In this document: positions 4,398 through 20,444 of the stretch, in pieces
How the letters are laid out: each line of letters starts with the position of its first letter
Position numbering within the stretch: the stretch's first letter is position 1
Assembly (NCBI RefSeq): GCF_007997155.1
Contig: NZ_VORT01000006.1
Coordinates: 62,001-126,000, forward strand
From: Aequorivita antarctica
GTDB taxonomy: Bacteria; Bacteroidota; Bacteroidia; Flavobacteriales; Flavobacteriaceae
Length of the DNA stretch: 64,000 bases
Direction of reading: 5' to 3'
Made by a program: the position numbers and the translations under genes
Notes under the pieces: model-generated
Told to the model about the DNA's origin: nothing
Database searches by the model: none
Seen by the model: only the letters and a program-made list of their open reading frames with translations

Positions 4398-5651
4398 TTA
4401 TAGACCGAAAGCTTTTTTCACGGCATCAACATGATCCAACTTTTCCCAAGTGAAAAGCTCAACTTCTTTTTCTATTCTTCCGTTGTAGGGGCTTTCAAAA
4501 GTTTTTGTTACTGTTTTCGGTTCGCGTCCCATATGCCCATAAGAAGCAGTTTCAGAATAAATAGGGTTTCTCAATTTCAACCTTTTTTCAATTGCTGCTG
4601 GGCGCATATTGAATATTTCTGAAACCTTTTTAGCGATGTCGCCATCAGAAAGTTTTATGTTTTTGGAATTGTAAGTATTTACCAAAATTGAAGTTGGTTC
4701 CACAACACCGATCGCATAAGAAACCTGCACTAAAACTTCATCTGCAACACCTGCTGCAACTAGGTTTTTCGCAATATGTCGCGAAGCATACGCAGCACTT
4801 CTGTCAACTTTACTCGGATCTTTTCCGCTGAAAGCACCCCCACCGTGGGCACCTTTACCGCCGTAAGTATCTACGATTATTTTTCTTCCAGTTAAACCAG
4901 TATCACCGTGAGGTCCACCGATTACGAATTTTCCAGTTGGGTTTATGTGATAAACAATATCGTCATTGAATAATTTTTGAACATATTCCGGAAGTAATTT
5001 TTTAACTCTTGGAATTAAAATCTCAACAATATCTTTTTTGATTTTTTTCAGCATCGGTTCATCCGCATCAAAATCATCGTGTTGCGTGGAAACTACGATT
5101 GCCACAATTTTCTGTGGAACATTATCGTCGCTATATTCAATAGTAACCTGGCTTTTTGAATCTGGGCGCAAATATTTTATTTCATCCTCTTCCCGACGTA
5201 AAGCGGCCAATTCAATTAAAATTTTATGCGAAATATCCAACGCCAACGGCATATAGTTTTCGGTTTCATTGGTAGCGTAACCAAACATCATTCCTTGGTC
5301 ACCGGCGCCTTGTTCCTCTTTGTTTTCACGGTCAACACCTTGGTTAATATCTTGTGATTGCTCGTGAATCAACGAAATAACCCCACAGGAATCACCACTA
5401 AATTTATAGGCTCCTTTGGTATAACCAATTTTGTTGATTACATCGCGAGCAATAGTTTGTACATCGAGGTAAGTATTGCTTTTAACTTCACCCGCCAATA
5501 CAACCTGGCCAGTGGTAACCAACGTTTCGCAAGCCACTTTTGATTCGGGATCGAAAGCTAAAAAGTTATCTAAAAGCGCATCGCTAATTTGATCCGCAAC
5601 TTTGTCTGGGTGTCCTTCAGAAACACTTTCCGAAGTAAATAAATAGGCCAT
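4398..5651 (-). CDS. metK: S-adenosylmethionine synthase
   Basis: This gene makes S-adenosylmethionine (SAM) from methionine and ATP. The 417-residue protein shows the family signatures: [18 protein letters not shown] near the N terminus, [12 protein letters not shown] (about residue 115) and the phosphate-binding [19 protein letters not shown] (about 270-290). The length is somewhat above the E. coli enzyme (384), as is common in Bacteroidota. It is transcribed alone, with a terminator at 4341-4370 and a promoter at 5779-5807. A leader of about 120 bases contains a SAM-II-like aptamer, so the gene is probably feedback-controlled by its product at the RNA level. Confidence 0.98.
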
Positions 5652-5712
5652 AAAATGGTTTTAAAAATTTATATTTTTCAGAAGATTTGACGAATGCCGA
5701 CGAGGAAGTTTT

Positions 5713-5763
5713 CACTGCCTTTAGCATTTTTTATTGAGGTTGCAATCAGTCAAATCTTTCCTC
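5713..5763 (-). ncRNA. Putative SAM-II class riboswitch in the metK leader
   Basis: Read on the minus strand, this 51-base segment matches the layout of the SAM-II pseudoknot as I remember it. P1 pairs GAGG (5763-5760) with CCTC (5739-5736). The loop holds GATTT (5756-5752) and ATTGCAA (5746-5740), and an A-rich connector leads to GCTAAA (5725-5720) and then CAGT (5717-5714). P2 can form from ACTG with CAGT, TT with AA, and GC with GC. The signature order GATTT..ATTGCAA..AATAAA..GCTAAA is that of SAM-II rather than SAM-I. The position between promoter and metK start supports a SAM sensor. The assignment is from memory and not checked with a covariance model. Confidence 0.72.
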
Positions 5764-5778
5764 TTAATTTGTCTTGGG

Positions 5779-5807
5779 CAAAAGTAAAAAAATTAAATGA
5801 ACCACAA
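5779..5807 (-). promoter_or_regulatory. metK promoter (Bacteroidota type)
   Basis: On the minus strand TTG (5807-5805), an 18-base spacer and TACTTTTG (5786-5779) match the Bacteroidota -33/-7 pattern TTG...TAnnTTTG. Transcription would start near 5772, giving a leader of about 120 bases that contains the SAM-II-like element. Confidence 0.65.
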
Positions 5808-5893
5808 TTTTATTTAAAGTCTTTTGGGGAAAAATTTAGGTATTTGGAATAAAGGTAACAAGAATCAGTTTACTATAATGCGGTAAAGGAGGG

Positions 5894-6268
5894 TCATTGA
5901 AGTGACTCATCTTTGTGTAAAAGATGTTCAATCTTAGAAATGAGATCGCTCATATCAAAAGGTTTAGAGATAAAATCTGATGCGCCCGCCTTCATGCAGA
6001 TTTCCCGGGCGTTATTAAGTGCAGACATCATCAGCACGGGGGTTCTGGAAATGGATCCTTGCCTCCTGATCTTAGCGCACACATCGGTACCGTCCACCCC
6101 GAAAATCAATTTGTCCAACAATACCAATTTTATGTTGTGTTCAATGATATTTTCATTGGTATCGTTAGGTTTTCTTGAGAGCATGACATCATAGCCACTA
6201 AAACCCAGCATGTCCTGGATCATGATGCCCAGGTTGTGGTCGTCCTCTACTATCAGTATTTTGTTCAT
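5894..6268 (-). CDS. Single-domain response regulator (receiver only)
   Basis: A 124-residue stand-alone receiver domain with no output domain. Visible landmarks are the acidic pair in IVEDD (residues 9-10), the phospho-acceptor D52 in LVLLDKLIF and K102 in FISKPF. The usual proline after the phosphosite (DxxMP) is replaced. It follows a very similar receiver (6304-6669) by 35 bases, and both lie directly downstream of the giant CheB-CheR-kinase gene on the same strand. The likely role is a phosphoryl acceptor or relay for that kinase. Upstream of its 3' end, 5652-5893 belongs to the metK leader and promoter. Confidence 0.9.
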   Translation of the reverse strand: MNKILIVEDDHNLGIMIQDMLGFSGYDVMLSRKPNDTNENIIEHNIKLVLLDKLIFGVDGTDVCAKIRRQGSISRTPVLMMSALNNAREICMKAGASDFISKPFDMSDLISKIEHLLHKDESLQ

Positions 6269-6303
6269 CTTGGTTAAGATTGTTTAATTCTTTTTTTGAT
6301 ATT

Positions 6304-6669
6304 TTAATTTTTTTTGCACAAAAGCATTTCAATCTTTTCAAGCAACGTATTCATTTCAAATGGCTTTGCTATAAATGCAGATGCCCCTGCTCGCAAACAT
6401 TCCGTTCTTATCTCAGGTAATGCAGACATCATAATTATCGGAACGTGCGCCGTATGCTTATTTGTTGTGAATGTGTTGCAAAGTGCCATGCCGTCCAGCC
6501 CGGCCAGGAACTTGTCCAAAATTATCAAATCTATCTTGTGTTTGAGGATGGTATGGTATGCATCGCCAGCTTGTATGGTTACAAATACCTCATAGCCACT
6601 AAAGTTAAACATATATTTTAACATTTCGCCTATCATGCGGTCATCATCAACTATCAATATCTTTTTCAT
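6304..6669 (-). CDS. Single-domain response regulator (receiver only)
   Basis: A 121-residue receiver domain resembling its downstream neighbour over its full length (shared FSGYxV, LDKxxxGxDG, MMSAL, RAGAS/KAGAS and KPFxM motifs), so the pair is probably a tandem duplication. The acidic residues in IVDDD (8-10), D52 in IILDKFLAG and K102 in FIAKPF are present. Its ATG overlaps the stop of the large upstream kinase gene by 4 bases (6666-6669), which indicates translational coupling and a shared function with that kinase. Confidence 0.92.
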   Translation of the reverse strand: MKKILIVDDDRMIGEMLKYMFNFSGYEVFVTIQAGDAYHTILKHKIDLIILDKFLAGLDGMALCNTFTTNKHTAHVPIIMMSALPEIRTECLRAGASAFIAKPFEMNTLLEKIEMLLCKKN

Positions 6670-9600
6670 TTCTTTTTTTTATGATTATTTTCGGCAATAA
6701 TGGGAAGGGTAAAAATAAATTCGGATCCTTTTCCTTTTTTGCTCTTTACGTCAACGTATCCATTGTGACGCTCTATAATTTCTTTGGCCAAAAAGAGGCC
6801 GATTCCAAAACCGGAAAAATTTGTTTCGTCTTTTCCGCTGACACGATAGAACTTTTTAAATAGGTGCTCATGGTCCTTTTTGTCGATCCCGATTCCTTTA
6901 TCCTTTATGCTTACCGCACCATTTTCTTCATCTACTTTGTAAATACGAACGAGAATGTTTTTATCAATTGGAGAATATTTGATGGCATTGGTAATGAAGT
7001 TGATCAAGACTTGATTAATCCTGTCCTTGTCGCCATTCACACTAAATGTATCCTCATGGGTTATCTTAATTTTGTATTCGTCGTTGGTATATTTGATGTC
7101 ATTAACACAGTTTTCCACGAATTCGTTTATGCTGAAAGTTTCCTGTTGCAATTCCAGTTTGCTCTCCTCCATACGTGAAAGATCCAGCATTTCTGAAATG
7201 AGACGGGTAAGCCGAGATACTTGGCTGTCTATCCGCTCCAAGCTCGGGATCAATGGAACGGTGCCTATGTTATCCTGCGCCATACTTTTCAGCATGCTCA
7301 ACAACAATTGGGTATATCCTTTAATTGAGGTAATGGGTGTCTTGAGCTCGTGGCTTACCATTTTAAGGAAATCTTCCTTACGTTTTTCCTCATCCTTTAA
7401 TTTCTGTATTTCGGTACTGGCACCTACCCACATAATGATTTTTCCGGTTTCATCTTTAACGGGATTGGCGCGGCTAATATGCCATTTAAAATCCCCATTT
7501 CTGTCAAGAAGTCTAAATTCCATCTCAAAATCATTCCCGGTTTTCACTGCATTCATCCAGTTGTGTTCGACTGTGGGTAACTCCTCTGGGTGCATCAATC
7601 TCCCCCAACCCTCTTTTTTTATTTTTTTCATGGTCAATCCCGAAAAATCGGTCCAGACGTTGTTGAAATAAAATAGTTCCCCATCCACGGTTGCATTGAT
7701 TATCATATCTGGCACCAAGTCGGTCATTTGATGGAACCGAGCTTCGCTTAGTTTTAGTTTTTTATGCAGTTCGGCTTGGATAGTAACTTCGGTCGAGATA
7801 ACGGCAACACCCTCAATTTTTCCATCCAAATCCCGTTGGGCTTGGTAAACAAAATCGAAATAAGGCATTTCCATCTTACCGTTGCGAATAAGGTTCATGG
7901 GCATTTCGTGGGCATGATAGGCTTTGCCAGTTTTTAGAACGTCCAGCAAATGCTTATCAAAACCCTGCCCTTCCAGTTCCGGTATAGCATCCATTAAGGG
8001 CTTGCCGATGGCACTTTTATCTTTGCCCCACGCTTCCAAAATGGCATCGTTGGCCGTGGATATCACTAAATCTTCTCCTACAAAAATAGCGATAAGGGAA
8101 GGCGAAGAATGTATCATTTCATTATACCTGTGCGCACTTTCCTCTACCATTTTTCGGGCAAGTACTTGCTCGGTTACTTCATTTACTATTACCATGATCC
8201 CGGTAATAATATTGTCTTGATCGCGCATGGGTTGGCACACAAAATTATAAAATCCCGGTTCGGCTTTCTTTTCCCTGCCCATCTTCACTTCCATTTCGTT
8301 ACCGTAGTAAGGTTCCCCGCTTTTTAGTGAGTTGTAAAGAAGTTTTTTGAGACCGTGTTCTTTAAGTTCGGGCAAGGCTTCAAAAATGGGCTTACCCACA
8401 AAGTTTTTCCCTTTTTCAACCAACTGCAAGAAAAGATCGTTGGCCAGTTCTACTTTATAATTTTTACCTTTTAAAAACATGATGGCCACGGGGGCCTGCA
8501 TTACCAAGTTTTTAAATTTCTCTAAAAGTTCTTGTTTTCTTTTCCAATGAAGCTTTTGTACCGTAATATCCTTAATTGCCAAGAGGATCAAATTCTTAGA
8601 TCGGTCCTCGCGTTTAATCTCCGTGGCATTTAAACACATGCTGCGTTCCCCAATGTGTTCAAAAGTATGGACTACCTCAAAATCTTCAAAGCTATTTTTT
8701 TTGGGCAGAATGGTTTCAAGCTGCCTCCGTAATTCGGGGATGTCCCATTGCTTGTTGCCCAATTCATAAATCAACTTGCCTTCAGTTTCCTTCTCTTTAG
8801 TATGGAAGGTTTTATAATAAGAATTGTTAGCGGCGCTTACTTTGAGGTTCTTGTCTAAAACCAACAAGGGTTCATGGATGGTTTCCACAATGCTTTCGGC
8901 ATAATTGCGCTCTTCGGTTACCAGCTCGTTTAAGTTGATGAGCTCGTGGTTTATTACTGTTATTTCTTCATTAGTGCTTTGCAGTTCCTCCTTACTGGTT
9001 TCCAGTTCCTCGTTCAGGCTTTGCAGTTCCTCGCCTCCGCTCAGCAGTTCTTCATTTGCACTTTGCAATTCTTCATTGGCGGCCTCTTGATCCTCGGTGA
9101 TGCTGCGCATATCTTCAAGGGTCTGCTCAAGCTCATTTTCCAATTGCCTGATGCGCAGGTCCTTTTCATCTTTTTCGGAATCTTTTTTATTTAGGGTAAG
9201 ATCTTCCTGGGCTGCTAACTGCCGGTGAAATAGTACCAAATAATGCGGTTCAACCACATTTGGAAGCGGCACGGCTTCCAAACAGATTAGCTGCCGGATG
9301 TCATTTTCAACAAAAGGGACATTTTCCTTTGTAACCGAAGTGCCCTCTGTCTTTACTTTATGGATGATGTTTCGCAGTTCAATCGCCAAACTCCCTTTAG
9401 CCATTTTGAACAGGTTATGGCTGGGCTTGCCACTTTGCTGCCCTAAATAGCTGTTGGTATTACCATTAAAAAGGATAATGTCCATGGCCTCATTCACCAC
9501 AACACTGGCGGGGGTAAAACGGCTTAACAATAGTTCGTCCGCTATTTTTTTAAAATCGGTGCGCTTTTTTTCGGTTTCTGGCTCAGATTCTTCATTGGTA

Positions 9601-11120
9601 TGCAACCTTTTTTCGCTATATCTCGTGGAGGACTTTATAACGGAAGTCGCCGAGTTTTTCCGCATAAATAGCTTGTCTTTCTTGTTTACTGGGCTATATT
9701 GCTCAGGCAAACTATTATTGGCCTCCGATTTCCCAAGCAACAGATACCCACTTTCATTTAAGGAGTAATGAAACGTGGCAAGGGCCTTTTTCTGCAAGTA
9801 TGGCTGCATATAGATGAGTACGTTTCTGCAGCTTATTATGTCCATATTGCCAAAAGGGGGATCGCTCAGGAAATTATGTAACGCAAATACGCACATTTCC
9901 CTGATTTCCTTATTAATCTGGTAGCCTGTTTTGGTTTTGGTAAAGAATTCCTTCAGCCGCTTTGGGCTTACATTTTCCAATTCACTGGTTGTGTAGATCC
10001 CTTTTCGCGCCTTTGCTATGGCGGGTTCGCTGATATCCGTAGCAAATAATTGTATTTTAATACCTGTCTTAGTTGCGGAGTCGCCAGTTAGCACCTGGTT
10101 TCCATTTAAGTATTCCTTCAAGCAAATAAGAAGGGAGTATGCTTCTTGGCCGGTACTGCATCCTACCGACCAAAGGCGTAAGGATTCATTGCTTTTTTTT
10201 TGCTGTAGCATTGGTATTATGCGTTCACATAGCGTATCAAAAACATCAGCATCCCTGAAAAATGTTGTTACGGGAATCAGCAAATCTTGGTATAACAAAT
10301 CCTGTTCATCCTTGTTTTCCCTTAAATAGGTAAGATAGGTTGCTGTCTTTTTAATTTTATTGAGAGCCATCCTGCGGAGTATCCTTCGGCGGATGGTGGT
10401 CTGTTTGTAATAGGTAAAGTCTGTACTCTTGCGTATGCGCAACAACGAAAGGATTTTCCTGAAGACCTCTTCTTCCTGATGCGAAATATCCTCTTTCTCA
10501 AACCCATTTCTATCCAAGGCGCTTACCAGTTCCAAAATTTTGGCTGGTATTTCCTCGGGCTTGAGTATAAAATCGACCGCGCCAGAATCTACTGCGTTCC
10601 GTGGCATATCGTCCCACTCGGCCGATTGTTGGTCTTGCGCAAAGGTAATGCCGCCCACTTCTTTAATTGCCTTTAGCCCCGCAGTCCCGTCAGCACCCGT
10701 ACCGGAAAGTACCACGCCCAGGGAATGGCTTTGGTGCACTGCTGCCAGCGAACTGAAAAAAAGGTCTATGGGCAGGTTTAGCTTGTTTTTTTCAGGGCCA
10801 GGGCGGGGGCTAAGCTTCAAGACCCCATCATTGGCCAGCAGCATTTTGTTGCTGGGGATGATGTATATGTGATCGGGTTCTACTTTAATATCATCTGCGA
10901 TTTCCAGCACCGGGACTTTTGTGACCTTTTGCAGCAGATCGGACAATACACTTTCGTGGTTGGGGTCCAAGTGTTGCACAAGTACGTAGGCCATGCCCGA
11001 ATATTCAGGGATGGCTCCCACTAATTTTTTAAATGCTGCCAAGCCACCTGCTGAGGCGCCGATGCCCACTACTGGGAAATTGTTGGCAGATTTTATGAGT
11101 TTTTCTATTGGTTTGCCCAA
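6666..11120 (-). CDS. CheB-CheR-PAS hybrid sensor histidine kinase
   Basis: A 1484-residue multidomain signalling protein without predicted membrane segments. Order: CheB methylesterase domain (about 10-200; triad S23 in GIGASAGG, H50 in VQHLDP, D144 in GTGADGT); CheR N-terminal and methyltransferase domains (about 215-490; SAM-binding WSVGCSTGQEA near 320); a long coiled coil of repeated NEELxS/EELQS units (about 655-740); about four PAS domains (about 740-1245); HisKA with H1257 in SHELKTP; and HATPase_c with NFITNAIKYSP, DKGIGID and GFGIGLFLAKE. Similar fusions are common in environmental bacteria and not tied to flagellar chemotaxis. Two receiver-only proteins follow directly and are the likely phosphate acceptors. 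The ligand and the methylated target are unknown. Confidence 0.95.
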   Translation of the reverse strand: MGKPIEKLIKSANNFPVVGIGASAGGLAAFKKLVGAIPEYSGMAYVLVQHLDPNHESVLSDLLQKVTKVPVLEIADDIKVEPDHIYIIPSNKMLLANDGVLKLSPRPGPEKNKLNLPIDLFFSSLAAVHQSHSLGVVLSGTGADGTAGLKAIKEVGGITFAQDQQSAEWDDMPRNAVDSGAVDFILKPEEIPAKILELVSALDRNGFEKEDISHQEEEVFRKILSLLRIRKSTDFTYYKQTTIRRRILRRMALNKIKKTATYLTYLRENKDEQDLLYQDLLIPVTTFFRDADVFDTLCERIIPMLQQKKSNESLRLWSVGCSTGQEAYSLLICLKEYLNGNQVLTGDSATKTGIKIQLFATDISEPAIAKARKGIYTTSELENVSPKRLKEFFTKTKTGYQINKEIREMCVFALHNFLSDPPFGNMDIISCRNVLIYMQPYLQKKALATFHYSLNESGYLLLGKSEANNSLPEQYSPVNKKDKLFMRKNSATSVIKSSTRYSEKRLHTNEESEPETEKKRTDFKKIADELLLSRFTPASVVVNEAMDIILFNGNTNSYLGQQSGKPSHNLFKMAKGSLAIELRNIIHKVKTEGTSVTKENVPFVENDIRQLICLEAVPLPNVVEPHYLVLFHRQLAAQEDLTLNKKDSEKDEKDLRIRQLENELEQTLEDMRSITEDQEAANEELQSANEELLSGGEELQSLNEELETSKEELQSTNEEITVINHELINLNELVTEERNYAESIVETIHEPLLVLDKNLKVSAANNSYYKTFHTKEKETEGKLIYELGNKQWDIPELRRQLETILPKKNSFEDFEVVHTFEHIGERSMCLNATEIKREDRSKNLILLAIKDITVQKLHWKRKQELLEKFKNLVMQAPVAIMFLKGKNYKVELANDLFLQLVEKGKNFVGKPIFEALPELKEHGLKKLLYNSLKSGEPYYGNEMEVKMGREKKAEPGFYNFVCQPMRDQDNIITGIMVIVNEVTEQVLARKMVEESAHRYNEMIHSSPSLIAIFVGEDLVISTANDAILEAWGKDKSAIGKPLMDAIPELEGQGFDKHLLDVLKTGKAYHAHEMPMNLIRNGKMEMPYFDFVYQAQRDLDGKIEGVAVISTEVTIQAELHKKLKLSEARFHQMTDLVPDMIINATVDGELFYFNNVWTDFSGLTMKKIKKEGWGRLMHPEELPTVEHNWMNAVKTGNDFEMEFRLLDRNGDFKWHISRANPVKDETGKIIMWVGASTEIQKLKDEEKRKEDFLKMVSHELKTPITSIKGYTQLLLSMLKSMAQDNIGTVPLIPSLERIDSQVSRLTRLISEMLDLSRMEESKLELQQETFSINEFVENCVNDIKYTNDEYKIKITHEDTFSVNGDKDRINQVLINFITNAIKYSPIDKNILVRIYKVDEENGAVSIKDKGIGIDKKDHEHLFKKFYRVSGKDETNFSGFGIGLFLAKEIIERHNGYVDVKSKKGKGSEFIFTLPIIAENNHKKKK

Positions 11121-11643: not shown

Positions 11644-12813
11644 ATGAGTGCAACAAAAATTATCCATTCCATTCCAAGTGATCCGTTAACAGGCGCTATT
11701 GCCGTTCCTGTTTACCAAACATCAACCTTTATCCAAGAAGCGCCGGGCGTCAACAAAGGTTTTGATTACGCCCGAAGTAACAATCCCACCCGCAAAGTGT
11801 TGGAAGACGTAGTTGCCCAACTTGAAAATGGCCATTCAGGCTTTGCCTTTGCAACCGGTTTAGCTGCCATTGATTCAATTTTAAAATTGCTTTCAGTTGG
11901 TGACGAAATCGTCGCAGTGGACGATATTTATGGCGGCGCGTACCGACTTTTCACTCACGTTTACGAAAAACTGGGAATCAAGGTTAACTACGTTGATGCC
12001 ACCGAAGTTGAAAACGTGGCAAATGCTGTCTCCAAAAAAACAAAGCTTATTTGGATTGAATCGCCAACCAATCCAACCTTAAAAATTTCCGACATCGAAG
12101 CAGTTTCGAAAGTAGCTAAAAGTGTAAATGCATTATTGGTTGTCGATAATACTTTCGCTTCTCCAATCGCACAAAAGCCAATCGAACTGGGCGCTGATAT
12201 TGTTATTCACAGCGGCACAAAATACATCGGCGGCCATTCCGATTTGGTTGCTGGTTTGGTGGTTACAAAAACGCCGGAACTTTCAGAAAAAATAAAATTC
12301 ATCCAAAATGCTTCTGGCGGAATTTTAGGTCCGTGGGATTGTTTCTTGACTATTCGTGGGATTGAAACTCTTGACATTCGGTATAAAAGGCAATGTGAAA
12401 ATGCTTTAAAAGTTGCGTTGTTCTTGGAAAGTCAAGATGCGGTTTCAACAGTGCATTATCCCGGTCTAAAAACCCATAAAAACCACGAAATCGCCAAAAG
12501 GCAACAAAACGGGCTGTTTGGAGGTATTGTTTCTTTTAGTTTGAAAAACGACACCCAGGAAGCTGCGGTAAAATTTGTAACCAATACTAAATTTTTTAAG
12601 TTGGCTGAAAGTCTTGGGGGTGTTAAAAGTTTACTGTGCCATCCCGCACAAATGACGCACGCTTCCATTCCGCGTGAAATCCGTCTGAATGCTGGAATCA
12701 ATGATTCGTTAATCCGTCTTTCCTGCGGAATTGAAGACGCCGAAGATTTGATCAACGATCTTTCCGAAGCTTTCAAAACCATTGAAAATTCAAAAGAAAT
12801 CCTAACCTATTAA
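11644..12813 (+). CDS. metB: Trans-sulfuration PLP enzyme (cystathionine gamma-synthase/lyase type)
   Basis: A 389-residue Cys/Met-metabolism PLP enzyme. The Schiff-base lysine is K193 in HSGTKYIGGHSD; YARSNNPTR (about 42-50) and the C-terminal SLGGVKSLLCHPAQMTHAS are family signatures. The family includes cystathionine gamma-synthase (metB), cystathionine lyases, methionine gamma-lyase and O-acylhomoserine sulfhydrylases, and sequence alone separates them poorly. Control by a SAM-I riboswitch and linkage to homoserine dehydrogenase and methionine synthase favour a biosynthetic step from activated homoserine. The gene that activates homoserine (metA or metX) is not in this window. The next gene starts 11 bases downstream, so they are probably one operon. 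Confidence 0.85.
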   Translation: MSATKIIHSIPSDPLTGAIAVPVYQTSTFIQEAPGVNKGFDYARSNNPTRKVLEDVVAQLENGHSGFAFATGLAAIDSILKLLSVGDEIVAVDDIYGGAYRLFTHVYEKLGIKVNYVDATEVENVANAVSKKTKLIWIESPTNPTLKISDIEAVSKVAKSVNALLVVDNTFASPIAQKPIELGADIVIHSGTKYIGGHSDLVAGLVVTKTPELSEKIKFIQNASGGILGPWDCFLTIRGIETLDIRYKRQCENALKVALFLESQDAVSTVHYPGLKTHKNHEIAKRQQNGLFGGIVSFSLKNDTQEAAVKFVTNTKFFKLAESLGGVKSLLCHPAQMTHASIPREIRLNAGINDSLIRLSCGIEDAEDLINDLSEAFKTIENSKEILTY

Positions 12814-12823
12814 AACGAAAACG

Positions 12824-13972
12824 ATGAGTGCAGCAACGGTAGAAATTCCTTTGGAACAATTGATAAATCTGGAAAAGATTAAAAAGAAAAAGATAAACAT
12901 CGCCATTTTCGGCCACGGAAATGTGGGACGCCATTTGGTGAATCAAATAATTTCATCAAAAGAAGAAATCTCCCGACGACGTGATTTGGAGTTAAATATT
13001 TTCGCAATAGCCAATTCAAAAACCGTTTTGCTCCAGCAAAAAGGATTGGGTGAAAATTGGTTAGAAGAAAAGATAGAAACTGGAAAATCATATAAACCCG
13101 AAGAAGTTATTTCCTTCGCGAAAAACAATAATCTTCAAAATCTGATTTTGGTTGACAATACGGCCGATTCCGACTTTGTTCAAAATTATTCACATTTTGT
13201 TGAAAATGGATTTCATTTGGTTTCTTCGAACAAAATCGCCAATACGTTGGATTTGAATTTTTATAAAGAACTTCGCGAAAAACTAACCTCAAAAAAGCGT
13301 CAATATTTATATGAAACAAATGTAGGTGCTGGATTACCATTGATTGATACCATAAAACTTTTGCATCTTTCGGGAGAAAATATCACGAGAATCCGTGGTG
13401 TGTTTTCAGGATCATTAAGTTATATATTCAATACTTTTTCGGAAGAAGATAGAACTTTCAGTTCTGTATTAAGATCGGCAATTGACAAAGGATTTACAGA
13501 ACCCGACCCGCGTGAAGATCTTTGCGGAAACGACGTTGGAAGGAAATTACTTATCTTGGCCCGTGAATTGGATTTGCACAACGAGTTTGCAGATATTTCC
13601 ATTCAAAACCTGATTCCAAAGGATTTGCGCAATGTATCAAAAGAAGAATTTTTAGAAAGATTGCAGGAATTGGATGTTCCGTTTCAAATCAAAAAGAAAA
13701 ATCAGCCGCACGATTGTGTGCTACGCTACGTAGCAGATTTGCACGGAGATCTTTCAAAAGAAACGGGTGCAATTTTAAATGTAAATTTGGTGTCAGTTCC
13801 CAAAAATAGTATGTTAGGAATTTTAAAAGGGAGCGACTCACTTTTTGAAATTTATACTGAAAATTATGGCGATAATCCAATCGTTATCCAAGGTGCAGGA
13901 GCCGGAGCAGCCGTTACTGCCCGTGGTGTTTTTGGAGATATTTTGCGAATAAGCGACAAAGACTATAATTAA
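12824..13972 (+). CDS. hom: Homoserine dehydrogenase, monofunctional
   Basis: This enzyme reduces aspartate semialdehyde to homoserine. The 382-residue protein has an N-terminal Rossmann motif (IFGHGNVGRHL, about residues 28-38) and the catalytic-domain signatures GVFSGSLSYIFNTF and GFTEPDPREDLCGNDVGRK, which resemble the C-terminal half of bifunctional ThrA. No aspartokinase domain is attached. It sits 11 bases after the metB-like gene in the same SAM-I-controlled transcript. That suggests a dedicated isoenzyme directing homoserine to methionine rather than threonine, while a ThrA-like copy probably exists elsewhere (inference). Confidence 0.93.
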   Translation: MSAATVEIPLEQLINLEKIKKKKINIAIFGHGNVGRHLVNQIISSKEEISRRRDLELNIFAIANSKTVLLQQKGLGENWLEEKIETGKSYKPEEVISFAKNNNLQNLILVDNTADSDFVQNYSHFVENGFHLVSSNKIANTLDLNFYKELREKLTSKKRQYLYETNVGAGLPLIDTIKLLHLSGENITRIRGVFSGSLSYIFNTFSEEDRTFSSVLRSAIDKGFTEPDPREDLCGNDVGRKLLILARELDLHNEFADISIQNLIPKDLRNVSKEEFLERLQELDVPFQIKKKNQPHDCVLRYVADLHGDLSKETGAILNVNLVSVPKNSMLGILKGSDSLFEIYTENYGDNPIVIQGAGAGAAVTARGVFGDILRISDKDYN

Positions 13973-14832: not shown

Positions 14833-15846
14833 ATGAATAAAATACAACAAGCACTTCAAAACCGAATATTGATCCTCGATGGCGCAATGGGCACGATGCT
14901 TCAGCGCTATAAATTTTCGGAAGAAGATTTTCGTGCCGAACGGTTTAAGGATTTTCATAAATCGGTAAAAGGAAACAACGATTTGCTTTCAATCACCCAG
15001 CCACAAGCAATTGCGGAAATCCATTCAAAATATTTTGCAGCAGGCGCTGATATTGTTGAAACCAACACATTTTCCAGCACCACAATCGCAATGGCAGATT
15101 ACGATATGCAGGATTTGGTTTACGAATTGAATTACGAATCCGCCAAAATCGCTAAAAAAGTTGCTGATGAATTCACGGCAAAAGAACCGCATAAGCCACG
15201 TTTTGTAGCGGGAGCCATAGGCCCGACAAACAAAACGGCAAGTATGAGCCCCGATGTGAATGATCCTGGATTTCGAGCCATTTCTTTTGAACAATTGCGA
15301 GTTGCATACAAGCAACAAGCAGAAGCATTGATAGACGGTGGCGTAGATCTTCTTTTGGTTGAAACTATTTTTGACACTTTGAACGCAAAAGCTGCACTTT
15401 TTGCAATAGATGAAATAAAGGAAGAACGAAATCTCGAAATTCCAATAATGATAAGCGGAACAATAACCGATGCTTCCGGCAGAACGCTTTCTGGCCAAAC
15501 TGCTGAAGCTTTTTTAATTTCAATTTCGCATATTCCACTGTTAAGTGTAGGTTTCAATTGTGCTTTGGGCGCCAAACAACTCACTCCTCACCTTGAAGTG
15601 ATTGCAAGCCGCACCAATCTTGCGGTGAGTGCCTATCCAAATGCCGGATTGCCAAACGCTTTTGGGGAATATGACGAAAGCCCCGCACAAATGGCTGAGC
15701 AAGTAAAAGAATATTTAGACAAGCAATTGGTAAATATAATCGGCGGTTGTTGCGGCACCACGCCCGAACACATCAAAGCAATTGCTGAAATCGCTTCCCA
15801 ATACAAACCACGACCTGTTTTTCAATCTGAAAATAGTACAGTATGA
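14833..15846 (+). CDS. metH: Methionine synthase N-terminal half (homocysteine S-methyltransferase module)
   Basis: A 337-residue protein equal to the homocysteine-binding module of cobalamin-dependent methionine synthase. The N terminus ILDGAMGTMLQRY and the three zinc cysteines (VGFNCALG and GGCCGTTPEH) are present. Flavobacteria usually encode MetH as two polypeptides, and the C-terminal half lies at 16785-19487. It is the first gene after the second SAM-I riboswitch. Unexpectedly, a PLP dehydratase gene (15843-16784), starting with an ATGA overlap, separates the two halves. Confidence 0.95.
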   Translation: MNKIQQALQNRILILDGAMGTMLQRYKFSEEDFRAERFKDFHKSVKGNNDLLSITQPQAIAEIHSKYFAAGADIVETNTFSSTTIAMADYDMQDLVYELNYESAKIAKKVADEFTAKEPHKPRFVAGAIGPTNKTASMSPDVNDPGFRAISFEQLRVAYKQQAEALIDGGVDLLLVETIFDTLNAKAALFAIDEIKEERNLEIPIMISGTITDASGRTLSGQTAEAFLISISHIPLLSVGFNCALGAKQLTPHLEVIASRTNLAVSAYPNAGLPNAFGEYDESPAQMAEQVKEYLDKQLVNIIGGCCGTTPEHIKAIAEIASQYKPRPVFQSENSTV

Positions 15847-16784
15847 TTCCCACAAAACAAGAAGTTGAAGAAGCGTGTAAGCGCATAAAACCATACGTTC
15901 ACAATACGCCAGTATTGAAATCTACCTATTTAAATGAACTTTCCGGCGCTGAAATTTTCTTTAAATGTGAGAATTTCCAAAAGATGGGTGCTTTCAAAAT
16001 GCGGGGCGCAACCAATGCAATTCTTCAACTTTCCGAAGAGCAAAGAAAAGCAGGTGTCGTAACGCATTCCTCTGGAAATTTTGCACAGGCACTTTCTTTG
16101 GCAGCGAAAAATTTGGGTGTAAAAGCATACATCGTAATGCCAGAAAATGCACCGCAAGTGAAAAAAGAAGCGGTAAAAGGTTACGGCGGAATTATTACAG
16201 AATCGGAATCAACACCAATAGCCCGTGAAACTGAAGCAGAAAGAATTCAAAAAGAAACAGGCGCGACTTTTATTCATCCTTCAAATGATAGAAATGTTAT
16301 CCTCGGGAATGCAACTTCCGCTGCAGAATTGCTTCAATCGCACTCCGATTTGGAGTATGTTTTTGCTCCCGTGGGCGGTGGCGGCTTGATTGCTGGCACA
16401 TCGCTTTCGGTAAAATATTTCGGCACTGATTGCAAAACAATCGGCGGAGAACCTTTTGAAGTTGATGATGCTTATAGAAGTCTTCAATCTGGAAAAATTG
16501 AATTCAACGAAACCACAAACACTATTGCTGACGGATTAAAAACGTTTCTTGGAGATGTCAATTTTCCAATCATAAAAGAATTGGTTTCAGAAATTATAAG
16601 GGTTGAAGAAACCAAAATTATTTCAGCAATGAAAATTATTTGGGAACGAATGAAAATTATTGTGGAACCGAGCAGTGCGGTTGCATTTGTAGCCTTGCTT
16701 CGGGAGAAAGAGCGATTTAAAAATAAAAAAGTTGGAATAATTATTTCCGGCGGAAATGTGGATCTTTCAAATCTTCCTTTTTAA
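15843..16784 (+). CDS. Threonine/serine dehydratase-like PLP enzyme
   Basis: A 313-residue fold-type II PLP enzyme. K52 in MGAFKMRGA is the Schiff-base lysine; SSGNFAQALS binds the substrate carboxylate, VGGGGLIAG the phosphate, and IISGGNVD lies near the C terminus. It lacks the C-terminal ACT-like regulatory domain of biosynthetic IlvA (about 500 residues), so it resembles catabolic threonine dehydratase or serine racemase; the two cannot be told apart here. It overlaps the metH N-half by 4 bases and its stop codon abuts the metH C-half start, so it is fully embedded in the SAM-regulated operon. A link between serine or threonine breakdown and one-carbon/methionine metabolism is inferred. 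Confidence 0.9.
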   Translation: MIPTKQEVEEACKRIKPYVHNTPVLKSTYLNELSGAEIFFKCENFQKMGAFKMRGATNAILQLSEEQRKAGVVTHSSGNFAQALSLAAKNLGVKAYIVMPENAPQVKKEAVKGYGGIITESESTPIARETEAERIQKETGATFIHPSNDRNVILGNATSAAELLQSHSDLEYVFAPVGGGGLIAGTSLSVKYFGTDCKTIGGEPFEVDDAYRSLQSGKIEFNETTNTIADGLKTFLGDVNFPIIKELVSEIIRVEETKIISAMKIIWERMKIIVEPSSAVAFVALLREKERFKNKKVGIIISGGNVDLSNLPF

Positions 16785-19487
16785 ATGGAAAAGACCCAAC
16801 CAAAATACCTAAAACTAAGTGGTCTCGAACCCCTTATTATTACCCCCGAAAGCAATTTCATAAACGTGGGCGAACGCACCAATGTGGCGGGTTCAAAGAA
16901 ATTTCTACGGTTGATAAAGGATAGGAAATTTGAAGAAGCCCTTACCGTAGCAAGAGAACAAGTTGAAAACGGCGCACAGATCATCGATATTAATATGGAC
17001 GATGGTTTGATTGATGGCAAAGAAGCGATGGTGAAATTTTTAAATCTCGTGATTGCCGAACCCGATATTTCCCGCGTTCCAATTATGATTGACAGTAGTA
17101 AATGGGAAATCATTGAAGCTGGATTGCAGGTTGTTCAAGGGAAATGCGTTGTGAATTCTATAAGTTTAAAAGAAGGCGAAGCAGAATTTATCCACCACGC
17201 AAAATTAATAAAGCGTTACGGCGCCGCGGTAATTGTGATGGCTTTTGATGAAACTGGACAAGCCGATAATTATGATCGAAGAATAGAAATCGCCAGTCGA
17301 TCTTATGATATTTTGGTGAATCAAGTAAAATTCGCTCCAGAGGATATCATTTTCGATTTAAATATTTTCCCAGTAGCAACTGGAATGGATGAGCATCGAA
17401 AAAATGCAATCGATTTTATAGAAGCTACGCGATGGGTTCGTGAAAATTTACCGCACGTGAGTGTGAGCGGCGGTGTTAGCAATGTTTCTTTCAGTTTTAG
17501 AGGGAATGATCCTGTTCGCGAAGCAATGCATTCGGTGTTTTTGTACCACGCCATTCAGGCAGGAATGAATATGGGTATCGTAAATCCAGCTATGCTCGAG
17601 GTGTACGATGATATTCCAAAGGATCTATTGGATCGAGTGGAAGATGTAATGTTCGATCGTCGCGAAGATGCTACGGAGCGATTACTGGATTTTGCAGAAA
17701 CCGTCATCGGAAAATCAAAAGAAAGTAAAATTGATTTGTCTTGGCGTGAAGAACCTTTACAAAGCCGCATTACCAGAGCATTAGTAAAAGGAATTGATGA
17801 ATTTATTTTAGAAGATATTGAAGAAGCACGACAAAAAGCCGATAAGCCAATTGAAGTAATTGAAGGCAATTTAATGATTGGAATGAACGTGGTTGGCGAC
17901 CTTTTCGGGAGTGGAAAAATGTTCTTACCGCAAGTTGTGAAAAGCGCTCGGGTTATGAAAAAAGCGGTCGCGTATCTACTTCCGTATATTGAGGAAGAAA
18001 AATTGAAAAACCCTCAAGCTGGGGATTCAAAAAACGCTGGAAAAGTTTTAATGGCTACCGTAAAAGGCGATGTTCACGACATTGGAAAAAATATTGTTGG
18101 TGTTGTCTTGGCGTGCAATAATTATGAAATAATCGACTTGGGAGTGATGGTCCCGCCAGAAAAAATAATCGCCGTAGCGAAAGAAGAGAATGTTGATGCC
18201 ATTGGTTTGAGCGGTTTGATAACACCGTCCTTGGACGAAATGGTCTTTTTGGCGAAAGAAATGCAGCGACAAAATTTTAAAGTTCCATTATTGATTGGTG
18301 GTGCAACGACAAGCAAAGCACACACAGCTGTAAAAATAGATCCCGAATATGAATGTGCTGTTGTACACATAAATGATGCATCCCGCGCGGTAACAGTAGT
18401 TGGCGATTTACTGAAAAGGGAAACTGGAGGTTCATATAAAGAGAATTTGAAAAGAGATTACGATACTTTCAGAAAAGATTTCCTGAAACGCCAACGTGTA
18501 AAAACCTATTTATCTCTTTCTGAAGCACGGAGGAACAGGTTTCAAATTGATTGGAATACTTCAGAAATAGTTAAACCGAAACAACTTGGAGTTCAGGTTA
18601 TAAAGGATTTCGATTTAAATCTATTAGTGTATTATATAGATTGGACGCCGTTTTTCAGAAGTTGGGAACTTCACGGAAGATATCCCGATATTTTGAAAGA
18701 TGAAATTATTGGTGAACAAGCTTCTGAATTATTTGAGGACGCAAAAAAAATGCTTCAAAAAATAATTTCCGAAAAACTATTGAATGCGAGAGCTGTTTTC
18801 GGAATTTTTGAGGCAAATACAATTAATGATGACGATATTTTATCGAAGGTTCCAAATTCCAAATCCCAAATTCCAAATCCCATTTTTAGAACCCTCCGCC
18901 AACAATCCAAAAAAGCAGAAGGAAAACCAAATATAGCATTGGCAGATTTCATAGCACCAAAAGAAAGCGAAATCCAAGATTATATTGGTTGTTTCTGCGT
19001 GAGTACGGGTTTTGGTACGCAACAATTAGCTTCAAAATATGAAAAGGAGCACGACGATTATAATTCCATAATGGTAAAAGCCCTTTCAGACCGATTGGCA
19101 GAAGCATTTGCGGAATATCTACACAAAAAAGTGCGGACAGAATATTGGGGCTATGCTTCCGAAGAAAAACTTTCCAATGAAGATCTAATTTCAGAAAAAT
19201 ACAAAGGAATTCGTCCAGCGCCTGGCTATCCCGCCTGTCCGGATCACTTGGAAAAACTTACAATTTGGGAAATTTTAAAAGTGAAAGAAAACATAGGCGT
19301 TGAACTCACCGAAAGTTTAGCAATGTGGCCGGCTTCATCTGTTTCGGGATATTATTTTGCAAATCCACAAGCGCGCTATTTTGGGCTCGGAAAAATTAAG
19401 GAAGACCAAATTGAAGATTTCGCAAAGCGGAAAAATATGGATATAGAAGAAGCCACAAATTGGCTAAAAACAAACCTTGCAGATTAG
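16785..19487 (+). CDS. metH: Methionine synthase C-terminal part (pterin, B12 and activation modules)
   Basis: A 900-residue protein with the remaining three MetH modules: methyltetrahydrofolate-binding (about 15-270; [12 protein letters not shown]), cobalamin cap and binding (about 310-560; axial histidine H431 in DVHDIGKN, then GLSGLITPS and [11 protein letters not shown]) and the SAM-dependent reactivation domain (about 570-900; [20 protein letters not shown]). It works with the N-half at 14833 to methylate homocysteine. Residues around 689-700 ([13 protein letters not shown]) are encoded by a TTCCAAAT-type tandem repeat at 18850-18881 and look like an insert in the activation domain. The ATG immediately follows the dehydratase stop, and metF starts at the base after its own stop. 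Confidence 0.96.
18850..18881 (+). repeat. Short tandem repeat inside metH
   Basis: Units of TTCCAAAT/CCCAAATTCC are repeated about twice over 32 bases in frame, coding for [11 protein letters not shown] remember this wording as a dispersed low-complexity repeat between genes of flavobacteria; here it is inside a core enzyme gene. Confidence 0.7.
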
Positions 19488-20444
19488 ATGAAAGTAACAG
19501 AACACATAAAAAACGGAAACGGAAAGACCCAGTTTTCATTCGAGATTTTACCGCCTTTGAAGGGGGAAAACATACATTCCATTTTCAATAATATTGATCC
19601 CTTGATGGAGTTTGAGCCACCTTACATAAACGTTACCTATCATAGGGAAGAATATGTTTTTAAGGAATTAAAGGATGGTTTAATTGAAAAAAAAATCGTT
19701 CGCAAACGCCCAGGAACAGTTGGTATTTGTGCGGCAATTCAAAACCGTTATCAAGTGGATGCAGTTCCCCATATACTTTGCGGTGGATTTACAAAGGAAG
19801 AAACCGAGAATTTTTTGATAGACCTTCAGTTTTTAGGAATTGACAATGTGATGGCGCTTCGCGGAGATGCTGTGAAAAGCGAAACCTATTTTACACCAGA
19901 AAAGAACGGCCATAAATACGCTTGCGACCTCGTTTCTCAAATAAATGCTTTGAACAAAGGAACTTATTTGGACGATGAACTTCAAAATACATTTCCAACA
20001 GATTTTTGTGTGGGTGTTGCTGGCTATTCAGAAAAACATATGGAAGCTCCGAGCAGCGAAAGCGATATCCATTTTCTGAAAAAGAAAATAAAAAATGGGG
20101 CGCAATACATTGTTACGCAGATGTTTTTTGACAATGATAAATTCTTTCAATTTGAAAAAAAGTGTAGGGCGGAAGGAATAACTGTTCCCATTATACCAGG
20201 TTTGAAACCAATAGCGGTAAAGTCTCATCTCAATTTAATTCCGCATAGATTTAAAGTGGATTTGCCCGACGCATTAGTAATGGAAATTGTGAAAGCGAAG
20301 GATAACAAAGCCGTTAGGCAGATTGGGATTGACTGGTGCGTTAAGCAAAGTCAGGAACTTGTAAAAGCTGGCGTGCCTTTTCTTCATTATTATTCTATGG
20401 GAAAAAGCAGTAATATAAGGGAAATTGCTTCGCAGGTATTTTAG
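19488..20444 (+). CDS. metF: Methylenetetrahydrofolate reductase
   Basis: This flavoenzyme makes 5-methyltetrahydrofolate, the methyl donor for MetH. The 318-residue protein has the family signatures FSFEILPP near the N terminus, FEPPYINVTYH (about 41-51), MALRGDAV (about 122-129) and QYIVTQMFFD (about 205). It starts on the base after the metH stop codon, so it is the last gene of the SAM-I-controlled unit. No clear terminator is seen in the 70 bases that follow. Confidence 0.96.
   Translation: MKVTEHIKNGNGKTQFSFEILPPLKGENIHSIFNNIDPLMEFEPPYINVTYHREEYVFKELKDGLIEKKIVRKRPGTVGICAAIQNRYQVDAVPHILCGGFTKEETENFLIDLQFLGIDNVMALRGDAVKSETYFTPEKNGHKYACDLVSQINALNKGTYLDDELQNTFPTDFCVGVAGYSEKHMEAPSSESDIHFLKKKIKNGAQYIVTQMFFDNDKFFQFEKKCRAEGITVPIIPGLKPIAVKSHLNLIPHRFKVDLPDALVMEIVKAKDNKAVRQIGIDWCVKQSQELVKAGVPFLHYYSMGKSSNIREIASQVF

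Follow-up and report, generated by a model that had tools for sequence, protein, structure and literature searches.

RNA elements like the one studied here have been described before, and the nearest is the 'SAM-II long loops' motif (RF01726; PMC2864571), which resembles our element in sequence, in helix P1, in the strands of the pseudoknot and in taxonomic range; a table in this 2010 paper carries the entry 'SAM-II long loops: Bacteroidetes, marine'. Bacteroides thetaiotaomicron is among the SAM-II organisms in a figure legend from 2005 (PMC1273637). The SAM-II riboswitches of Alphaproteobacteria, known from metA and metZ, share the fold, are predicted to be turned off by SAM and have a transcription start near P1; they sit on methionine-synthesis genes, with terminators or Shine-Dalgarno sequences next to the aptamer (PMC1273637, PMC9373788). 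The SAM/SAH riboswitch of Rhodobacterales is likewise a small pseudoknot RNA found directly before metK (PMC2864571, PMC7367207). SAM-I (S box; RF00162) recognizes the same ligand as SAM-II but has an unrelated fold, and a 2007 survey by Barrick and Breaker (PMC2258182) reported both classes in Bacteroidetes and no single species with both. In the open-access papers listed and the passages covered we found no description of an expression platform for Bacteroidota SAM-II, nor of SAM-I and SAM-II occurring together in one species, which in both cases is weak evidence of absence.

The SAM-II class is known, but the expression platform of SAM-II on metK may be undescribed. We lean towards the view that SAM-II on metK in Bacteroidota uses an undescribed platform, in which a near-antisense copy of the 5′ half of the aptamer, placed between aptamer and start codon, would compete with SAM in leaders that have no intrinsic terminator, and that these bacteria routinely divide SAM control between two unrelated folds, SAM-II on SAM synthesis and SAM-I on methionine synthesis, which in some genomes share an intergenic region back to back.

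The window (the whole stretch of 64,000 nucleotides from Aequorivita antarctica that was analysed) has metK and its leader on the minus strand and two SAM-I copies several kilobases away (Table 1). When the whole window was scanned with cmscan against 4227 Rfam families, RF01726 was matched over its full length (model positions 1-60 of 60, E = 5.3e-10), with E = 3.7e-12 in a local scan around the metK leader. The first-pass annotation had proposed a SAM-II-like riboswitch on metK, and both the class and the downstream gene proved right. The helices and core motifs that it named are all in place on the minus strand: P1 is formed by GAGG (5763-5760) and CCTC (5739-5736), P2a by ACTG (5750-5747) and CAGT (5717-5714), P2b by GC (5743-5742) and GC (5725-5724), and the core has GATTTG (5756-5751), TTGCA and AATGCTAAA (5728-5720). 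There is one match to SAM-II in total in the source genome (whole-genome scan).

Table 1. Features of the metK and methionine-synthesis loci in the window
Feature	Coordinates	Strand	Remarks
SAM-II aptamer, RF01726	5769-5710	minus	cmscan 64.0 bits (cut-off 44), together with P1 covariation
metK, methionine adenosyltransferase	4398-5651	minus	TIGR01034, 506.9 bits (cut-off 309.4)
Leader, aptamer to start codon	5713-5652	minus	anti-aptamer in the 5′ part, then A/T-rich up to the ATG
Promoter	5807-5779	minus	TTG (5807-5805), 18 nt, TACTTTTG (5786-5779); read from sequence
Putative anti-aptamer element, GTCAAATCTT	5691-5682	minus	10 bp complementary to AAGATTTGAC (5758-5749) of the aptamer
SAM-I aptamer 1, RF00162	11404-11522	plus	69.3 bits
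Cystathionine-synthase-like PLP enzyme	11644-12813		downstream of SAM-I aptamer 1; best model below its whole-protein cut-off
Homoserine-dehydrogenase-like gene	12824-13972		after the cystathionine-synthase-like gene; best model below its whole-protein cut-off
SAM-I aptamer 2, RF00162	14528-14639	plus	76.9 bits
Split metH	14833-15846 and 16785-19487		downstream of SAM-I aptamer 2
metF	19488-20444		after split metH

Compared with RF01726, the window has an extra base (a G) between GCTAAAG and CAGT and a short loop, and its downstream leader lies outside the Rfam model. One or two extra bases at the GCTAAAG/CAG junction are found in 30 of 112 distinct related aptamers, the window's included, and AATGCTAAA is found in 99 of the 112, which had been selected beforehand for having GATTTG, TTGCA and GCTAAA. 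All our aptamer sets were preselected by the core pattern, which gave 197 core matches (some of them false) that were then filtered. The first-pass annotation had proposed covariation of P1 and P2 in relatives as a test. In P1, 429 out of 448 cells of the 112 aptamers are Watson-Crick (permutation mean 382.9, maximum 394), a clear covariation; its second pair, for example, is A-T in 83 aptamers, T-A in 18, G-C in five and not Watson-Crick in six. P2a is mostly invariant: if the inserted base is allowed for, 75 of the 112 aptamers are fully paired and 37 are not, and a changed 5′ strand that is still paired was seen in two of the 112, i.e. there is little covariation. A P2a count at fixed offset gives 256 out of 448 cells, with 240.7 on average and at most 251 in permutations, but is confounded by the inserted base.

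Small pseudoknot aptamers resemble each other, and the match could in principle reflect chance likeness or a different class of small SAM-sensing pseudoknot (SAM-V, SAM_alpha or SAM/SAH), an explanation we consider extremely improbable. Among the covariance models that the first-pass annotation had put forward, SAM-II matched at full length with 64 bits, SAM_alpha (RF00521, the proteobacterial SAM-II model) reached 16.4 bits and stayed under its cut-off of 36, and SAM-V gave no match at E<=1 in the scan of the leader; the SAM/SAH model, from a different family, had no match at this level either. Chance likeness is also opposed by the gene downstream, since metK follows in 153 out of 160 SAM-II loci (a script assigned 141, and inspection of its hits added 12 in which metK starts beside an Rfam match with a variant core; the 160 are the best matches plus the top of the lists, and not a random sample). 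Sequence comparison thus confirms that the metK leader carries a real SAM-II riboswitch of the known class, normal for Flavobacteriaceae.

The distance from the Rfam match to the metK start is 58 nt, or 62 nt when counted from CAGT. The metK proteins most similar to that of the window, among the matches listed, come from a Bacteroidia bin (86%), followed by Flagellimonas, Euzebyella, Mesonia and similar genera. For the leader tests we kept, from the 197 core matches, 129 metK leaders with an exact core, an identified metK start and distances within set limits. The window leader has a TTG/TAnnTTTG consensus, which we take to be a promoter of the Bacteroidota type. TAnnTTTG precedes GATTTG, by a median of 20 nt, in 118 of the 129 leaders (in mononucleotide shuffles 7.9 on average and at most 15), and 52 leaders have it together with an upstream TTG (0.8 in shuffles). 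Its position just before the aptamer suggests that the metK mRNA begins at the aptamer or close to it. A sigma-70 promoter was rejected as a candidate: the scan gave a single match, which lies inside the aptamer, and shuffles give as many.

Unlike the Alphaproteobacterial SAM-II riboswitches, the one in the window has neither a methionine-synthesis gene nor an intrinsic terminator behind it, but metK and, instead of the terminator, a stretch complementary to the aptamer (5691-5682), which we read as an anti-aptamer, and metK thus as a SAM-repressed switch. In the minimum free energy fold of the window leader, 5758-5749 is paired with 5691-5682 at the expense of the aptamer structure (pseudoknots are outside the fold model), and an inner GCAT (5697-5694) is also able to pair with ATGC (5727-5724). 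The stability of the window leader as a whole is unremarkable (z -1.22; equalled by 20 out of 200 shuffles), and its pairing between aptamer and downstream leader, taken alone, is modest (matched by three of 100 shuffles, p about 0.04). So modest a value would also suit a direct translational control by SAM-II with no dedicated anti-aptamer, the complement being an accident of ancestry or composition. The leaders of the relatives make this explanation unlikely, although their relatedness, which inflates permutation tests, speaks in its favour.

Across the 129 leaders, the duplex energy between the 5′ half of the aptamer and the downstream leader averages -18.8 kcal, vs -13.0 kcal in dinucleotide shuffles, which keep the composition. 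It reaches p<=0.05 in 78 leaders (the sequences being related, the p values of all tests on these leaders are optimistic), whereas a control with the reversed aptamer is flat (12 out of 129, combined p 0.50). A hexamer complementary to the invariant GATTTG, CAAATC, occurs in 58 of the 129 downstream leaders (shuffle mean 6.1, maximum 14), and control hexamers in none or one. A wider set of five anchors, chosen after the leaders had been read and in leaders preselected by the aptamer pattern, is represented in 79 leaders and absent in 50; as shuffled leaders contain it in 27.7 cases on average (maximum 42), some of the anchors are chance, and both the 50 leaders without an anchor and this background fit an accidental complement. 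GTCAAAT is found in 25 out of 26 window-type leaders, but this count is circular, as the group was chosen by GTCAAAT.

An accidental complement is also opposed by compensated pairs. Of 78 anchored leaders, 58 have a Watson-Crick partner for the varying aptamer base beside GATTTG (on average 34.8 and at most 47 in 2000 permutations), while the second base out from GATTTG shows no association (35 vs 34.9) and the bases beyond it are invariant or unassociated. On the metK tree we counted seven joint changes, seven in the aptamer only and 18 in the anti-aptamer only. When leaders with different GATTTG-adjacent bases were paired without overlap in order of tree distance, both partners were Watson-Crick in 22 out of 32 pairs, a raw count in which many pairs are distant. 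On average, a downstream leader also fits its own aptamer better than randomly swapped ones (z -8.7 over the 129 leaders). Compared with the aptamers of the three closest relatives in which the aptamer differs, its own fits better in 72 leaders, worse in 39 and equally well in 18. At the level of sequence, the aptamer, metK, the placement of the promoter and a family-wide, covarying complementarity between aptamer and anti-aptamer are shown. A second, weaker pairing joins the 3′ end of the aptamer to the beginning of the downstream leader; it reaches p<=0.05 in 19 out of 126 leaders, with p 0.04 for the window. In four loci (L212, L208, L017 and L091) the downstream leader, judged by eye, contains an almost complete antisense copy of the 5′ half of the aptamer, e.g. 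about 17 out of 20 nt in L212, with one base missing.

The covarying anti-aptamer is a concrete and mutable element, the less expected part of an otherwise ordinary riboswitch, and is worth an experiment. We propose that the SAM-II riboswitch and the anti-aptamer, at the very start of the mRNA, quite probably reduce the expression of metK at high levels of SAM. In the SAM-bound state, P1 and the P2 pseudoknot would form and leave the strand 5691-5682 free; when SAM is absent, this strand would pair with the 5′ half of the aptamer (5758-5749) and keep the aptamer unfolded, which we take to be the state that expresses metK. SAM binding by the metK leader RNA, the OFF direction and the identity of the expressing state are inferred here from sequence. 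The separate SAM-I switches would govern methionine synthesis.

How a riboswitch with neither an intrinsic terminator nor an obvious ribosome-binding site switches a Bacteroidota gene is a question raised by this leader. No intrinsic terminator was found on the metK strand within 5500-5950 (the sole site found is on the opposite strand), a home-made rule detects a terminator-like site in only two of the 129 leaders, and no Shine-Dalgarno sequence is visible by eye in the window metK leader. We favour control of translation initiation, at about even odds, over Rho-dependent termination. The accessibility of the start region in the two states of the leaders is 0.563 vs 0.539, a mean difference of +0.024 that is positive in 78 of 129 leaders (-0.023 in shuffled leaders); for the window it is -0.03, slightly in the wrong direction. 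Masking of the bases before the AUG is significant (p<=0.05) in 16 out of 126 leaders, and there is none in the window leader (p 1.0). In the leaders with masking (L006, L009, L014, L017, L077, L208 and others) the stretch immediately behind the aptamer forms an arm with the bases just ahead of the ATG and the anti-aptamer sits between both arms, so that a locked aptamer would leave the start masked. As a general readout, however, start-codon masking was rejected, the mean effect of +0.024 being small and the window having none. Pairing of the leader with early metK codons was rejected as well (two of 26 window-type leaders at p<=0.05; window p 0.98).

The genome encodes Rho (649.5 bits) and the leader core of the 26 window-type leaders has more C (0.282) than G (0.137), which makes Rho-dependent termination possible. 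The C-rich strand freed by SAM would then recruit Rho, and in the absence of SAM it would be buried in the anti-aptamer helix. This Rho readout of SAM-II, which would also agree with the unmasked start codon of the window and with a metK strand that has no intrinsic terminator, seems to us a possible but doubtful alternative: part of the excess of C over G follows from the complementarity to the G-rich aptamer strand, and a subset of the relatives has start-site masking instead.

Two RF00162 matches, one before the cystathionine-synthase-like gene and one before metH, agree with the SAM-I aptamers that the first-pass annotation had placed on the nearby methionine genes. The stretch that separates them from metK (5894-11120) encodes a histidine kinase of CheB-CheR-PAS type, together with two response regulators of a single domain each. 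The whole source genome has these two SAM-I matches above the cut-off and a weak one (27.5 bits, cut-off 44.4; G000:C32:199604-199674, locus L004). metH is split into an N-terminal part of 337 aa and the remaining 900 aa, with a threonine-dehydratase-like gene (15843-16784, named from sequence) between them; another locus (L054) has the N-terminal part of metH with the same threonine-dehydratase-like neighbour. On the minus strand between SAM-I aptamer 2 and metH there is also a Flavo-1 RNA (RF01705, 14701-14808, 55.9 bits), the single match of this family in the source genome. The affinities reported in the 2005 paper (PMC1273637) are about 10 uM for a minimized SAM-II aptamer of A. tumefaciens and about 4 nM for the yitJ SAM-I of B. 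subtilis. From these values in other species, it is plausible that SAM-II and SAM-I answer different SAM levels.

The presence of both folds in one genome, which the first-pass annotation hinted was unusual, turned out to be common. Among 249 sampled Flavobacteriaceae genomes 235 have SAM-II (228 above the cut-off) and 199 have SAM-I at E<=0.001, and 193 have both, 42 SAM-II only, six SAM-I only and eight neither (the large genome searches used stricter filters, and weak matches may be missed). Co-occurrence of SAM-I and SAM-II is the rule in Flavobacteriaceae, and for this family our sample shows the opposite of the 2007 survey: both classes in one genome are common. Across the class, SAM-II occurs in 44 of 295 genomes (above the cut-off in 38) and SAM-I in 210; 38 of the 44 with SAM-II also have SAM-I (29 out of 35 without the family of the window). 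Among 20 whole genomes hand-picked from 80 listed metK loci, SAM-II is found in 17 (one below the cut-off), SAM-I in 16 and both in 13, including genomes of Flavobacterium, Polaribacter and Winogradskyella. This raises the question of why a lineage should maintain SAM sensors of two unrelated kinds for two steps in the same pathway.

The genes next to the two classes differ. Among the 30 best-scoring SAM-I loci, none has SAM-I before metK in the same direction; the N-terminal part of metH adjoins SAM-I in 23, metB/metY-like genes in five (in two cases with an osmC-like gene in between), and the downstream gene is unnamed in two (genes were found by tblastn with the window proteins and their positions read by hand). 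In one of the latter two (L060) metK lies on the other side of SAM-I and points away from it. Of the seven SAM-II loci out of 160 not followed by metK, two reach contig ends and five precede other genes: an O-acetylhomoserine-sulfhydrylase-like (metY-like) gene (L022 and L199), the N-terminal part of metH (L261), a DUF6580 membrane protein (L196) and a QueF-like protein (L197). The four genomes that contain these five loci (G004, G239, G055 and G052) have no SAM-I match at E<=0.001, and SAM-II may possibly have taken over further targets in SAM-I-free genomes; a role of DUF6580 related to SAM or methionine is likewise possible.

In some genomes the two classes are immediate neighbours. A genome of the same genus (G027) has the SAM-II and SAM-I cores in divergent orientation about 144 nt apart, and the gene that follows its SAM-I is only 37.7% identical to the window counterpart. 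With a SAM-I core pattern that recovers 29 of 30 strong positive controls, 10 out of 139 SAM-II/metK loci have a divergent SAM-I core within 590 nt and none has one on the same strand. Five further divergent SAM-II/SAM-I pairs were found outside the 139 loci (G005, G144, G190, G196 and G206).
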